A stretch of DNA of 64,000 nucleotides from Dissulfurimicrobium hydrothermale (GTDB taxonomy: Bacteria; Desulfobacterota; Dissulfuribacteria; Dissulfuribacterales; Sh68). Positions 803 through 9,495 of this stretch are shown one piece after another. The DNA is taken from NCBI RefSeq assembly GCF_022026155.1, contig NZ_CP085041.1, forward strand, positions 1,458,306 through 1,522,305, given 5' to 3'. Every line of letters starts with the position of its first letter. The stretch's first letter is position 1. The notes beneath the pieces were generated by a model. That model did not search any database. It worked only from the letters and a program-made list of their open reading frames with translations, and had not been told where the DNA came from. The position numbers and the translations under genes are program-made.

Positions 803-2086
803 ATGGGCAGGGACATGTCAGAAATATACAATGGGATGTGGCAAAGACTAGGTCTTAACCTTGAGGCCCACCATGAGCTCTTGAAGACCCTGGGTGTTTT
901 CTATAGCGATATTTATCTCAGCCAGAAAGACAGACCAAAGGCCATGGAGTACTTCGATTTCGTCATGAGCGAGGTGCACGGCCTGCGTATCCAGGAGTTA
1001 CAGGAGGCCAAGGCAAATGGCAGAAGGGTTATCGGCACTTTTTGCGTATTCGTCCCTGAAGAATTGATCCTGGCTGTAGATGGGGTATGTATCGGGCTTT
1101 GTGCAGGTGCTGAGGTCGGCATCTACCAGGCCGAACAATATCTTCCAAGAAACACCTGCAGCCTCATCAAGTCATTTTTTGGGTTCAAGCTGGCCGGCCT
1201 CTGTCCCTTCACCAACTCCTGCGACTTGGTGATTGGAGAAACCACCTGTGACGGCAAAAAAAAGGCGTATGAGATATTTGGTGGATTTCAGCCTGTTTAT
1301 GTAATGGAGGTCCCGCAGACCAAAAGCGAGGCGGCTCACAGACTCTATGAATCAGAGGTCGTTCGGCTCAAAGATCACCTGGAGGCCGTATCTGGCAAAA
1401 AGATCACGGTGAAAGCCTTGAATCAGGCTATTCGGCTTGTCAACCGCAGGCGCCGCGGCCTTCAGAGGTTGAATCGATTGCGTTTTGCATCCCCTGCCCC
1501 TGTCAGCGGCCTGGATGCCCTGCTCGTAAATCAAGTGGCTTTTTATGATGATCCTGTTCGAGTGACAGAGGCCATAGAACGCCTATGCGACGAGATTGAA
1601 GACCGAATCAAGGCCAACCAGGGTGTCAAACCAGTCGGTGCGAAGCGCATATTGGTGTCGGGTTGCCCTATGGCCATACCCAACTGGAAGATTCCAATGA
1701 TAGTGGAACAGGCTGGTGCCGTGATAGTAGGCGAAGAAAGTTGTGTTGGCGAAAGGCATACGAAAAATACCGTAAAAGAAGACCTAACTGATCTGAACGA
1801 TATACTTCATGCCATAGCCCGACGCTATATGCAGATCGACTGTGCCACCTTCACCCCCAATGAAGAACGCATGGATCACATAATAGAATTGGTTCGCAAG
1901 ACAGAGGCGCAGGGCGTAATTCACTATGCCATCCAATTCTGCCAGCCCTATACCATAGAGGCCAAACGGGTTGAAGAACGTTTACGGTTGGAAGGTATTC
2001 AATACCTCAGGATCGAGACCGACTATTCTCTACAGGACTTGGAGGCCTTAAAGACACGCATAGAGGCATTTTTAGAGACATTATGA
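803..2086 (+). CDS. double-cubane-cluster anaerobic reductase / 2-hydroxyacyl-CoA dehydratase D-family protein
   Basis: This 427-residue protein belongs to the 2-hydroxyacyl-CoA dehydratase D (HgdB/YjiM) superfamily. Members of the double-cubane branch hold an [8Fe-9S] double cubane and reduce small substrates with electrons delivered by an ATP-dependent activase. Cysteines that may bind the cluster occur in TFCVFVPEE, the CPFTNSC pair, GETTCDGKKK, VSGCP, EESCVGER and YAIQFCQPY. The C-terminus TDYSLQDLEALKTRIEAF matches the family signature (T-D-Y-S ... L-x-T-R-I-E-A-F). The family pairing is confirmed by the next gene, its activase, 61 bases downstream. An alternative start is the ATG at 815; neither start has a strong Shine-Dalgarno site. 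The physiological substrate is unknown. The double-cubane subtype rather than a true CoA-dehydratase subunit is inferred from the presence of a single subunit. Confidence 0.85.
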   Translation: MGRDMSEIYNGMWQRLGLNLEAHHELLKTLGVFYSDIYLSQKDRPKAMEYFDFVMSEVHGLRIQELQEAKANGRRVIGTFCVFVPEELILAVDGVCIGLCAGAEVGIYQAEQYLPRNTCSLIKSFFGFKLAGLCPFTNSCDLVIGETTCDGKKKAYEIFGGFQPVYVMEVPQTKSEAAHRLYESEVVRLKDHLEAVSGKKITVKALNQAIRLVNRRRRGLQRLNRLRFASPAPVSGLDALLVNQVAFYDDPVRVTEAIERLCDEIEDRIKANQGVKPVGAKRILVSGCPMAIPNWKIPMIVEQAGAVIVGEESCVGERHTKNTVKEDLTDLNDILHAIARRYMQIDCATFTPNEERMDHIIELVRKTEAQGVIHYAIQFCQPYTIEAKRVEERLRLEGIQYLRIETDYSLQDLEALKTRIEAFLETL

Positions 2087-2147: not shown

Positions 2148-2963
2148 ATGATTACGACAGCAGGATTGGACATAGGTTCTCGCACTATAAAATTGGTCTT
2201 GATGCAAGACGGCGCTGGAATAGTTCACATGGAAAAGGAGGAGACCTCCTTTGATTATATGGACCAAACTAAAAGGATGTTGAAAGGCAAGGGATACGAG
2301 GCCATACTGGTTACCGGCTATGGCCGCCACCTGGTGGGCGAGGCCATGAAAATCGGCCGTATAACTGAGATCAAGGCCCATGCAGCCGGGGTACGTCAGC
2401 TCATTCCAGGGGTTCGCACCATACTGGACATCGGTGGTCAGGACACCAAGGTTATCTCCCTTGATTCAAGCGGTAAGGTGATACGGTTCGAGATGAACGA
2501 CCGCTGTGCAGCAGGTACGGGACGCTTTTTAGAGGTGATGTCCCAAGCAGTGGGTTGCAAAGTCTCTGAACTGGCCGACCTGGCCATGAAGGGCCGAGGA
2601 AATGTGGCTATCAACAGCCTATGCACGGTTTTTGCCGAGACAGAGGCAATCTCCCTAAAGGCCAGGGGTGCAAATCCAGAAGATGTAGCCAGCGCTATAG
2701 TTGATTCGGTGGTGCAGAGAGCGGCGGGCATGATCAAGCGAATCGGTCTTTCACCCACTGTTGCCTTTTGCGGCGGTGTAGCCCGAAACAAGGCAGTTGC
2801 GGCAGGGCTTGCCAAGTGCCTTGGAACGCTGGTCGTCACACCTGATGAGCCTGATTTTACTGGAGCTATTGGGGCCGCGATCTTGGCATTACAAAATATA
2901 CAACAAACGGGGGCGAAGGTGCTGGCGCATCCCGCGGGCTGCAAACCCGTCGGCCCTGTCTAA
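2148..2963 (+). CDS. HgdC/YjiL-type activase ATPase for the reductase
   Basis: A homodimeric ASKHA-fold ATPase with a bridging [4Fe-4S] cluster, which fires low-potential electrons into its partner enzyme. The sequence shows the N-terminal phosphate loop AGLDIGSRTIKLVL, the second nucleotide motif LDIGGQDTK at about 93-101, and the two cluster ligands Cys120 (NDRCAAGTGRF) and Cys159 (NSLCTVFAETE). An ATP-binding FCGGVARN follows near 188-195. It sits 61 bases after the reductase gene on the same strand and is probably co-transcribed. Oddly, its last 17 codons or so (from about residue 255) and its stop codon TAA at 2961-2963 lie inside the tRNA gene at 2909-2998. The tail GAKVLAHPAGCKPVGPV is therefore dictated by tRNA structure rather than by the family. 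The family core ends just before it, at GAIGAAILAL. Confidence 0.88.
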   Translation: MITTAGLDIGSRTIKLVLMQDGAGIVHMEKEETSFDYMDQTKRMLKGKGYEAILVTGYGRHLVGEAMKIGRITEIKAHAAGVRQLIPGVRTILDIGGQDTKVISLDSSGKVIRFEMNDRCAAGTGRFLEVMSQAVGCKVSELADLAMKGRGNVAINSLCTVFAETEAISLKARGANPEDVASAIVDSVVQRAAGMIKRIGLSPTVAFCGGVARNKAVAAGLAKCLGTLVVTPDEPDFTGAIGAAILALQNIQQTGAKVLAHPAGCKPVGPV

Positions 2964-2998
2964 AAAACAGGGAGGAGGTTCAATTCCCCTCGCCCCCT
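2909..2998 (+). tRNA. class II tRNA with GCA anticodon and tRNA-Sec-like body (Cys-type discriminator)
   Basis: The 90-base gene folds as follows. The acceptor is 8 bp (2909-2916 with 2990-2997). The D stem is 5 bp (2918-2922 with 2927-2931) with a 4-base TGGC loop. The anticodon stem is 2934-2938 with 2946-2950, and its loop CTGCAAA gives anticodon GCA at 2941-2943. The long variable arm has a 6-bp stem (2954-2959 with 2967-2972). The T arm has a TTCAATT loop and a 4-bp stem with A2976 bulged. An alternative reading is 7/5 with a G-T pair and an A-C mismatch. The discriminator base is T2998 and CCA is not encoded. The long variable arm and short D loop are tRNA-Sec traits. GCA and U73 are Cys identity elements of known tRNA-Cys. 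It starts inside the activase gene and ends 23 bases before selB. Candidates are a tRNA-Sec mimic charged with Cys, or a tRNA-Sec recoded to UGC/UGU. Confidence 0.85.
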
Positions 2999-6405: not shown

Positions 6406-9400
6406 TTAGGTCTTAAATCTCCCATATCTAAGCGCCAGGGTTGGCAGAATGAGTAGATTGAGCGCTGTGGAGGTAATCAACCCGCCCAGGATGACTGCGG
6501 CCATCGGGCCTTCGATCTCGTTGCCTGGCGCGCCGCTGGTTAAGGCCAACGGCAGCAGTCCCAGGGCGGTGACTAGCGCAGTCATCAAGATCGGCGACAG
6601 ACGCTCTGCAGCACCCTTGATTGCCGTCGTTTTGTCCCACGCCATGCCTTCCACTTCGACCAAATGACGGTAGTGTGAGATTAACATGATGGCATTGCGA
6701 AGTGTGATGCCGAAAAGGGTAACAAAGCCCACTACTGACCCGATAGACAGCACGCCGCCTGTTGCGAGCGCTACGACTACACCGCCGGCCAGCGCAAAGG
6801 GTAGGTTGATGAATACCAAGAGGGCCGAGCGCACGTTGCCCAGTGCCATATACAACAACAATGTCACCCCTGCCGCTGCCAGCATCGAATGCAACAGCAG
6901 ATCGCGCTGGGCCCTAGCTCGTTCAGGCGCATCACCGGCGAATATCAGGTAAAAGCCGCGTGGCAATCTAACATGAGCGGCGATCTGTTTCTTCGCGGCC
7001 TTGACAAAACTTGACAGGGCGCGCCCTCTTACCTCTGCCGTCACGACCTGTATGCGTTGTGCTTCGTTGTGCAGAATCAGGTAGCGGCCATTGGTCTGGG
7101 TAATGTCCGCCACGTCTTTGAGCAGCACCATCTGGCCATCCGGCGTCTTTAGTGGCAACTCGCCGACCTGTGCCGGACTTTGCCGTAGGTGCGGCGCCAG
7201 CACTACCGTCACGTCAAATGCCCGGTTGCCTTCATACACCTCGCCTACCGAAGTACCAGCGTAGGCGGCTTCGACCGCGCTCATGGCATCAACTGGGGCG
7301 ATACCGAGCCGTGACAAGACGCTATTGCGCAGGCGGATGATCATCTGCGGAATACCTACCGGCGCCTCTACTCGTACTGTGCCAGCGCCTGGAACGTTGC
7401 GGATCGCAGCGGCGATTTCTTTGGCCTTGCGGTCGAGTACATCAAGGTCGTTGCCATAGACATCCACCACAACCGGTGCTGTATAACCCGCAATCGTCTC
7501 ATGGATGCGTTCGGTGAGAAAGGTGTTGACCGAAAAGTTCGCCCCAACAAAGGATGAAACGGCCTTACGGATGGCGTTTAATACGTGCTGCTGTCCGGCG
7601 CCCGAAAGCGGGGTCAAGTCCACCTCAAACTCACTCGAAAACGCCCCTGCCGGATCTGATACCTGGGTCGCCCGCCCTACGCGCTGCGCCACTGAACGTA
7701 TCCCAGGGATCCGGCTGAGCGCCGCAGTGACACGCTGCCCCAGCGCGAGTGACTGGGCCAGCGACGTGCCGGGCGCCAGTTTCATGTGGACAATGAAATG
7801 GCCCTCGTGCAGCGCTGGTAGGAATGTGCCTTGCATGAATGGCAACGCAACGAATACCGCCCCACACAACAACATCACGGTCAAAATCGCTGCGCCCGTA
7901 TGACGGTCGATATTGGCGAGCAAGCGCGTGTAGCGCATATTGAGCCATCTGCTCAAAGGCGGTTCTTGCGCCTCGGCCGCCCGGCTGGCAAGCAATGAAT
8001 AGGCAAGCGCCGGGGTAAGCGTCAGTGCCACTGCAAGTGAAGCCATGATAGCCGCGATATAGGCGATTGCCAGCGGACCGAACAGTCTGCCAGCTACGCC
8101 GGACAGCGTCAATACCGGCACAAACACTAGGGCCACGATAAAGGTGGCTTAGATCACTGCACCGCGTACCTCGAGTGAGGCATTCAATACCACTTGTGCT
8201 GCATCCAATGGGATAGGCAGCATTCGGTTTTCGCGCAGGCGTCGGAAGATGTTCTCCATATCGACAATGGCGTCGTCAACCACCTCACCGATAGCGATGG
8301 CAAGTCCGCCCAACGTCATAGTATTGAGGCCGATACCAAAGTGATTGAGCACGATCACAGCGGTCAGCAACGCCAGCGGAATCGCTGTGGCTGAAATAAC
8401 CGCGGCGCGTATGTTGAACAGGAACAAAAACAGCACCGTCAGCACCAGCGCGGCACCGATCAGAAGGGCGGTGCGCAGATGGCTAATCGCGGTTTCGATG
8501 AAGTTGGCCGGGCGGAACAGGTCGGGATGCAGGGTCACGCCTTCGGCGGCAAGGGCTGGTTTAAGCTGCGCGAGGCGTTGTTCCAGTGTCTGGGTCACTG
8601 CCATGGTATTCGCGCCATACTGTTCCTCGATCACCAGCATCACCCCAGGTTGGCCTTGGATCGAAGCTGCGCCTACTGCAGGTGCCGGCGCAATCTTCAC
8701 CTGCGCCACGTCTGCCATGCGTAAGGTGATGCCGCCCTGATGGCGCAGCACCACCGTGCCCAGCGCCACGGCGGAAATCGGCTGCCCAGTGGTTTCCAAG
8801 ACGATGCGCTGATTGTTGTTTTCGATAAAACCAGCACCACGCACCGCCGTTGCCCGCTTCGCTGCGTTTACCACGTCCTGGATCGACAGGCCGTAACGCA
8901 CCAGCTTGTCCGGGTCGACCTGAATCTGCAACTGCTTAATCTCACCGCCGAATACCGAGATACCAGCTACCCCTTTCACGGAAAGCAGTTGCGGCTTGAC
9001 GATCCAGTCAGCAAGGGTGCGCAATTTCATCAGGGAACACGTGTTCGAGGTCAGACCGACGCTCAACACTACACTGGTAGAGGAAGCCAGCGGCAGCAAA
9101 ATAGGTGCCTTCACACCCCGAGGAAGCGCGCTGACGGCACCGCCAATCTGCTCTGCTACAAGCTGTCTAGCTCGATAGATATCGGTGCCTGACACGAAGA
9201 TCAAGGTTATCATAGAAAGCCCTTGAAATGATTTCGAGCGCATGATCTTAATCCCTGCTATGCCGGCCAACCGGCTCTCCAGCGGCTGGGTGACCAGTAC
9301 TTCTACCTGTTCGGGTGACAAGCTCGGTGCCTCGGTCTGAACCTGTACCTGAGGAGGTGCGAATTCCGGGAACACATCCAGCCGCGCATGACTGAGAGCG

Positions 9401-9495
9401 AACAAGCCGTATCTGGCCAGCAGCATGGCCAGGGAGATGACGACGCCGCGGAAACGGATAGCAAAGCAAACGATACCTCTAATCATCGTCATCAC
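6406..9495 (-). pseudogene. CzcA/CusA-family heavy-metal RND pump, interrupted by one in-frame TAA
   Basis: This is the inner-membrane proton-driven pump of a tripartite metal efflux system. The frame runs 1,030 codons, the family's normal length, but codon 449 (8151-8149) is TAA. The residues on either side, SLEVRGAVI and ATFIVALVFVP, match the family's continuous EVRGAVxxATFIVxLVFxPVL without a frame change. The disrupted codon usually encodes Tyr or similar. Before the stop lie the N-terminal porter region and GEVVDDAIVDMENIFRR, the conserved transmembrane proton-relay segment. After it lie the second porter half and the last membrane helices, ending ALRYGRFKT. A GTG at 8136 could in theory start the second half. 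Base composition is clearly more GC-rich than in the flanking genes, suggesting transfer. The likely explanation is recent decay, or a sequencing error. Confidence 0.85.

Follow-up and report, generated by a model that had tools for sequence, protein, structure and literature searches.

What use does a bacterium that already has a selenocysteine tRNA make of a second tRNA of similar shape, bearing a cysteine anticodon? This question is raised by a locus of Dissulfurimicrobium hydrothermale Sh68, found in a stretch of 64,000 nucleotides that was analysed as a whole and is called the window below. The tRNA gene, selC*, is followed by a gene for a SelB-family elongation factor, selB* (Table 1).

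Table 1. Positions of selC*, its neighbours and a candidate charging enzyme in the window
Feature	Position	Strand	Remarks
Double-cubane-cluster-containing anaerobic reductase	803..2086	+	NF040772, 473.5 bits, cut-off 350; selenium-associated neighbour
Acyl-CoA dehydratase activase (TIGR00241)	2148..2963	+	No stop before the tRNA; ORF end inside it, 2961-2963; 55 nt overlap
selC* tRNA-Cys (tRNA-ReC type)	2909..2998	+	Anticodon GCA 2941-2943, bulged A 2976, U73 at 2998, no encoded CCA
selB* SelB-family elongation factor, 660 aa	3022..5004	+	GTPase motifs intact, winged helices kept, pocket residues changed
Cysteine synthase-cysteinyl-tRNA synthetase fusion, 790 aa	60322..62694	+	One of two CysRS genes; candidate charging enzyme

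A tRNA of selenocysteine shape with cysteine marks

The initial annotation of the window had attributed to this tRNA a set of unusual anatomical elements, and all of them were present on direct reading. The acceptor has 8 bp (2909-2916 with 2990-2997), the D loop 4 bases and the variable stem 6 bp (2954-2959 with 2967-2972), while the T stem, GG(A)GG/CCCC, has 4 bp with A2976 bulged; the GCA anticodon and U73 are in place. The D stem comprises 5 pairs, compared to 6 in tRNA-Sec. The only tRNA that ARAGORN predicts in the 64 kb window is a tRNA-Cys (gca), at exactly 2909-2998 on the + strand. A covariance-model search, proposed as a check in the same annotation, gave a match to the Rfam tRNA-Sec model RF01852 over positions 2909-2997 (56 bits, E = 2.3e-9, for a gathering cut-off of 47), and the MFE z-score was -2.8. 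This tRNA-Sec-shaped tRNA with a Cys anticodon is a genuine tRNA gene. U73 and GCA are the marks that CysRS recognises, G73 being that of SerRS, and charging by CysRS is therefore expected. Upstream, the activase ORF ends within the variable arm of the tRNA; at other loci, the preceding ORF ends 3 to 28 nt before selC*. Because the activase ORF overlaps the tRNA, cutting by RNase P would leave a nonstop activase mRNA.

The D. hydrothermale genome, a single contig of 2,025,450 bases, also encodes a canonical UCA tRNA-Sec (C1:118714-118807, 74.4 bits with RF01852, tRNA-SeC (tca) by ARAGORN), as well as SelA and a canonical SelB, separate from selB*. A UGA lies in frame at the expected position of its selD, and others occupy the molybdenum-ligand site of fdhA and the cluster site of hdrA. 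As a complete ordinary selenocysteine system is present, the selC* tRNA is an extra one, and not the selenocysteine tRNA of its host.

Two CysRS genes were found in this genome. One of them is the fusion listed in Table 1, which joins a CysM/CysK-type enzyme to a full CysRS with its anticodon-binding domain; nearly all of the 46 class genomes have such a fusion in addition to a normal, separate CysRS. We rejected the fusion as a dedicated charger of selC*, since it is nearly class-wide and since no intact copy was found in genome G026, which nevertheless has selC*. No published account of a CysM/CysK-CysRS fusion turned up in a literature search. An ordinary tRNA-Cys was not seen in the approximately 65 to 70% of the D. 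hydrothermale genome that was scanned. The published tRNA count is 47 (PMC8780430), of which 44 were located, and from this difference we infer that an ordinary tRNA-Cys exists.

The tRNA family and its elongation factor

The four selC* genes found within the order align without gaps, with 93% column identity, and form 100% standard pairs, with compensatory changes. A search model was built from these four genes and used to scan 395 genomes of the phylum (Desulfobacterota). It yielded 38 family genes in 37 genomes, all with at least 77 bits, the next class of matches reaching at most 66 bits. When 33 related tRNAs were aligned, the expected pairs were formed in 98.4% of cells, and two-sided changes were found at 15 of the 28 base pairs, a count reached by none of 500 shuffles and approached by no slid version of the structure; as the alignment was fitted to the proposed structure, these counts lean towards it. 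Covariation affected all six pairs of the variable stem, and also acceptor pairs 7 and 8 both, which favours an 8/4 branch over a 7/5 one. The bulged A was kept in every 8/4 relative except one. The anticodon is UCA in 12 of the 38 members.

Two further groups of tRNAs were encountered. At loci L123 (G383, 8962-9050, + strand) and L124 (G311, 8994-9082, - strand), a selC*-like tRNA with UCA has A73 replacing U73, and the pocket of the adjacent SelB* is changed further, to I-D-R-L-R and I-D-G-F-R; judged by these sequences, another amino acid is possibly carried there. In family f28 (L126, L127, L129, L130 and L132), the tRNA is tRNA-Sec-like with GCA and U73, but has a 5-bp T stem (8/5, a 13-bp branch). 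There was no SelB nearby where the flanks of these loci could be read, and each genome had one SelB match.

The neighbouring selB proposed in the initial annotation is real: selB* begins 23 nt past the tRNA end, and its product is above cut-off for TIGR00475 (297.6 bits, cut-off 242), PF09106 and PF09107. It shares 33% identity with the canonical SelB of D. hydrothermale. At 27 of the 38 loci, selC* is closely followed by a SelB gene on the same strand, and at least two SelBs were found in 26 of the 37 selC* genomes. Within the class, SelB* orthologues were present in just 4 of 46 genomes, in every case closely preceded by a GCA selC*; their reading frames are intact (44 to 47% identity) and contain the GTPase motifs. 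A search for related loci that started from one protein query returned a single SelB relative, an unrelated one.

When 65 SelBs were placed in a tree, the 37 canonical proteins joined in a single clade, which a long branch (0.92, support 100/100) sets apart; all SelB* fell outside this clade. As the tree is unrooted, it does not demonstrate a single origin of SelB*. The SelBs of L029 and L148 grouped with SelB* and carry its motifs; these two SelB*-like genes (in G038 and G311, respectively) have no adjacent tRNA call. Conversely, G027 (L104) has selC*, and no SelB* was found there. On the SelB* tree, the GCA/UCA switch corresponds to a single change. This suggests that tRNAs with either anticodon are served by one type of factor, and makes a shared UGA target the more likely.

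Such data bear on two explanations in which the pair would not be used for decoding selected codons. In the first, selC*-selB* would have been acquired and would now be decaying, without function in D. hydrothermale. Its patchy spread in the class and the selC* without SelB* in G027 are compatible with this, but the perfect pairing and compensatory changes within the order, as well as the intact SelB* frames at their level of identity, make it highly improbable. In the second, which we consider somewhat less improbable although still doubtful, the tRNA would be a spare or regulatory one, used with EF-Tu for general cysteine decoding, or else as a sensor or attenuator of a selenium operon with SelB* as decoy or regulator. 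The overlap with the activase ORF, like the short spacing elsewhere, means that the operon mRNA would be severed when the tRNA is processed, and EF-Tu can bind long acceptor stems, albeit with reduced affinity (PMC11231383). However, the SelB* orthologues of the order are intact in four cases out of four, GTPase motifs included, and covariation maintains an 8-bp acceptor and a long variable arm that EF-Tu decoding does not need.

We then compared the amino acid pockets of the two SelB types. In human eEFSec, the selenocysteine pocket consists of Phe53, Asp229, His230 and Arg285, bacterial SelB having Tyr at the first place and Arg at the third; changes at the last three eEFSec residues abolish selenocysteine insertion (PMC5059743). 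Pocket columns were assigned by motif in our own alignment, after the same work. In canonical SelB the pocket is F-D-R-H-R, with F, D and both R present in 37 of 37 proteins and H in 36. In SelB*, D and the last R are kept, whereas just 5 of the 27 proteins have F and 14 have the first R. The D. hydrothermale pocket is H-D-H-G-R; across the four proteins of the order, the first place is H, H, H and Y and the third H, H, G and Q, and the conserved His near the pocket is replaced by Gly in all four. Compared at the sequence level, these changes would fit a factor whose cargo is now a thiol in place of a charged selenol. This fit is limited by some SelB* lineages, about half of the proteins, in which the pocket Arg is retained. 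The D. hydrothermale SelB* thus shares the family profile and the winged helices with canonical SelB, while at the four pocket places H, D, H and R stand instead of F/Y, D, R and R.

The pocket also bears on the possibility, raised in the initial annotation, of a sense-codon tRNA-Sec, which would be serylated, converted by SelA and used to insert selenocysteine at cysteine codons. The above-cut-off match to the tRNA-Sec model would agree with it, and the Aeromonas salmonicida tRNA-Sec with GCA, similar in combining the Sec shape with a Cys anticodon, behaves in this manner (PMC11415595). The A. salmonicida tRNA carries selenocysteine, whereas selC* has the marks of CysRS and stands beside a normal selenocysteine system of tRNA-Sec, SelA and canonical SelB. 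Moreover, U73 replaces the G73 used by SerRS, the branch has 12 bp and the D stem 5 bp instead of 13 and 6, and the SelB* pocket is lost. Such a role is extremely improbable.

Selenium genes around selC*

The double-cubane reductase upstream of the D. hydrothermale tRNA is a recurrent neighbour: it was found at most 12 kb from selC* in 12 of 32 genomes, representing 9 of 17 families (0.24 expected, P ~ 1e-13 by family), and is mostly single-copy per genome. Other selC* clusters include YedF, YedE, a cysteine desulfurase close to SclA, and UGA-type selD. A 2-hydroxyglutaryl-CoA dehydratase subunit and a CoA-enzyme activase are reported as genomic partners of SelA, SelB, SelD, YedE and YedF (PMC5322559, Table 1). 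The order at the f30 locus is double-cubane reductase, activase, YedF, selC* (UCA), selB*, cysS* (a second CysRS) and selD (UGA); at the f18 locus it is double-cubane reductase, activase, selC* (GCA), selB*, selD (UGA) and YedF, and the selD copies of both loci are additional ones. At L111 (G089) and L120 (G260), selB* or cysS* is immediately followed by a further selD copy, which has its UGA in frame and a SECIS-like hairpin; both genomes have another UGA-type selD elsewhere. This setting of the pair in relatives hints that cysteine may be placed where selenocysteine is normally used. A selenium link in D. hydrothermale itself is less evident, as its locus has the double-cubane reductase and the activase alone.

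The UGA of selD was considered as a marker of selC*, but it occurs in most selD genes of the phylum, with or without selC*, and was therefore rejected. Among the SelD-positive phylum genomes listed, about two-thirds have a UGA-type selD without selC*, so that selD alone does not explain the presence of selC*. A general scan for genes with in-frame UGA beside selC*, in which the read-through frames of the 38 loci were compared within the local set, gave no convincing case; the UGA-type selD copies beside selC* were found by profile search.

A second type of neighbour is the hdrA-fdhA pair. In D. hydrothermale, the hdrA-fdhA operon (L260) has UGA at both sites and does not adjoin selC*. In G004 and G026 (L056 and L057), the orthologues lie just before selC* and have the Cys codons TGT and TGC; in G027 (L104), where the fdhA site alone was scored, its codon is TGC. 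These Cys-type genes, rather than UGA genes, adjoin selC* in the three genomes, which argues against UGA as the target. Hairpins resembling a SECIS were also considered downstream of the fdhA and hdrA Cys codons in these genomes, and were rejected because they are weaker than in the UGA orthologues. In G004, the region downstream of selB* (L056, 177-4621) contains an ORF in which CRISPR-like repeats are translated, as well as two CARF/Csm6-like ORFs.

Candidate codons of the pair and relation to known systems

Taken together, and as far as sequence comparison allows, we favour with a probability of about 0.6 the reading of the selC*/selB* pair as a bypass that saves selenium by placing cysteine at UGA codons marked by a SECIS. 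CysRS would charge the tRNA with cysteine; the 8-bp acceptor would keep it off EF-Tu and route it to SelB*, whose C-terminal winged helices would locate hairpins of the SECIS type. Cysteine would then enter at the in-frame UGA of selenoprotein genes, for instance selD, fdhA and hdrA of the host, and Cys versions of the selenoproteins would be made under selenium shortage. A relative with GCA from Desulfotomaculum nigrificans is reported to read selenocysteine UGA codons with cysteine, delivered by SelB (PMC11415595). The main weakness of this reading is that GCA pairs with UGC and UGU, so that reading UGA needs a third-position mismatch. If the bypass exists, a single codon would have two dedicated elongation factors in the same cell, which would bring selenocysteine and cysteine, respectively. 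Named targets, and selenium starvation as a condition under which the role of selC* could be tested, follow from the selenium-gene link and the UGA-containing selD.

The perfect pairing of GCA with UGC and UGU is the starting point of the main rival, which we consider unlikely: SelB* would bring Cys-tRNA to those UGC and UGU codons that are followed by a SECIS-like hairpin, as a special control of chosen cysteines. The fdhA genes just before selC* in G004, G026 and G027 have UGC at the former selenocysteine site. Also, the winged-helix domain 4 of SelB* is 53% conserved among its own kind, as it is among canonical SelBs, compared to 26% between the two, and may thus read another hairpin. However, the hairpin following these UGC codons is less strong than its counterpart after the UGA of the orthologous host fdhA, with stem or loop missing in two cases out of three (a small sample), the members with UCA would be unable to read UGC or UGU, and an ordinary tRNA-Cys would compete.

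A proposal that we regard as slightly less likely again is that SelB* and the Cys-tRNA act on genes for selenium handling, chiefly on selD, by reading their SECIS-marked UGA, so that a cell deprived of selenium could make Cys-SelD and resume selenocysteine synthesis. selD is a UGA gene in nearly all selC* genomes and is duplicated beside selC*-selB* in two. If true, a selenoprotein required for making selenocysteine would get round its own bootstrapping problem.

The tRNA-ReC family was described by Mukai et al. (2017) and Vargas-Rodriguez et al. (2018), as reviewed in PMC7609411 and PMC11415595. The reviewed selC* tRNA-Cys has a modified 8/4 structure with an unpaired A at 51a, U73 and GCA (or UCA), and in delta-proteobacterial groups it is followed by a second selB (PMC7609411). 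The initial annotation had pointed to Cys tRNAs mimicking tRNA-Sec from the work of Mukai and co-workers, and all the features tested agree with the reviewed description: an 8/4 branch with a bulged A, a long variable arm, U73, GCA, a second selB downstream, and a place beside a normal tRNA-Sec. By sequence, the D. hydrothermale pair therefore belongs to this rare, published family. It differs from the family as reviewed in its locus, which has no dedicated cysS* and has the double-cubane reductase and the activase upstream, and in its H-D-H-G-R pocket. The same annotation had held that the decoding idea would be weakened if a normal UCA tRNA-Sec, together with a SelB for it, were found at another place. 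Both are indeed present, but such coexistence is the rule in the family: a match to RF01852 above cut-off was obtained in 37 of the 37 selC* genomes, most of which have a separate canonical tRNA-Sec. As a whole, the initial interpretation is partly supported.

Other tRNAs are similar in part. Bacterial tRNA-Sec (selC, RF01852) has the same long variable arm, 8-bp acceptor and short D loop, with a match over the Rfam cut-off, but has UCA and not GCA, G73 and not U73, and a 13-bp rather than a 12-bp branch, besides its longer D stem. Allo-tRNAs (8/4 and 9/3) have a 12-bp branch and a long variable arm, but their identity is Ser (G73) instead of Cys (U73, GCA), and selC* is paired with a SelB paralogue. 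As far as the searched literature goes, Dissulfuribacterales is apparently new as a host, the order being unnamed in the review (PMC7609411). The selenium-gene link statistics and the SelB* pocket comparison appear to be new as well, no prior report having been found in that literature, outside which the original 2017 and 2018 papers lie.

Finally, elsewhere in the window, the gene of an RND-type efflux pump appears split into two ORFs of 576 and 448 aa (6406-9495, - strand), perhaps by a frameshift or as a pseudogene.
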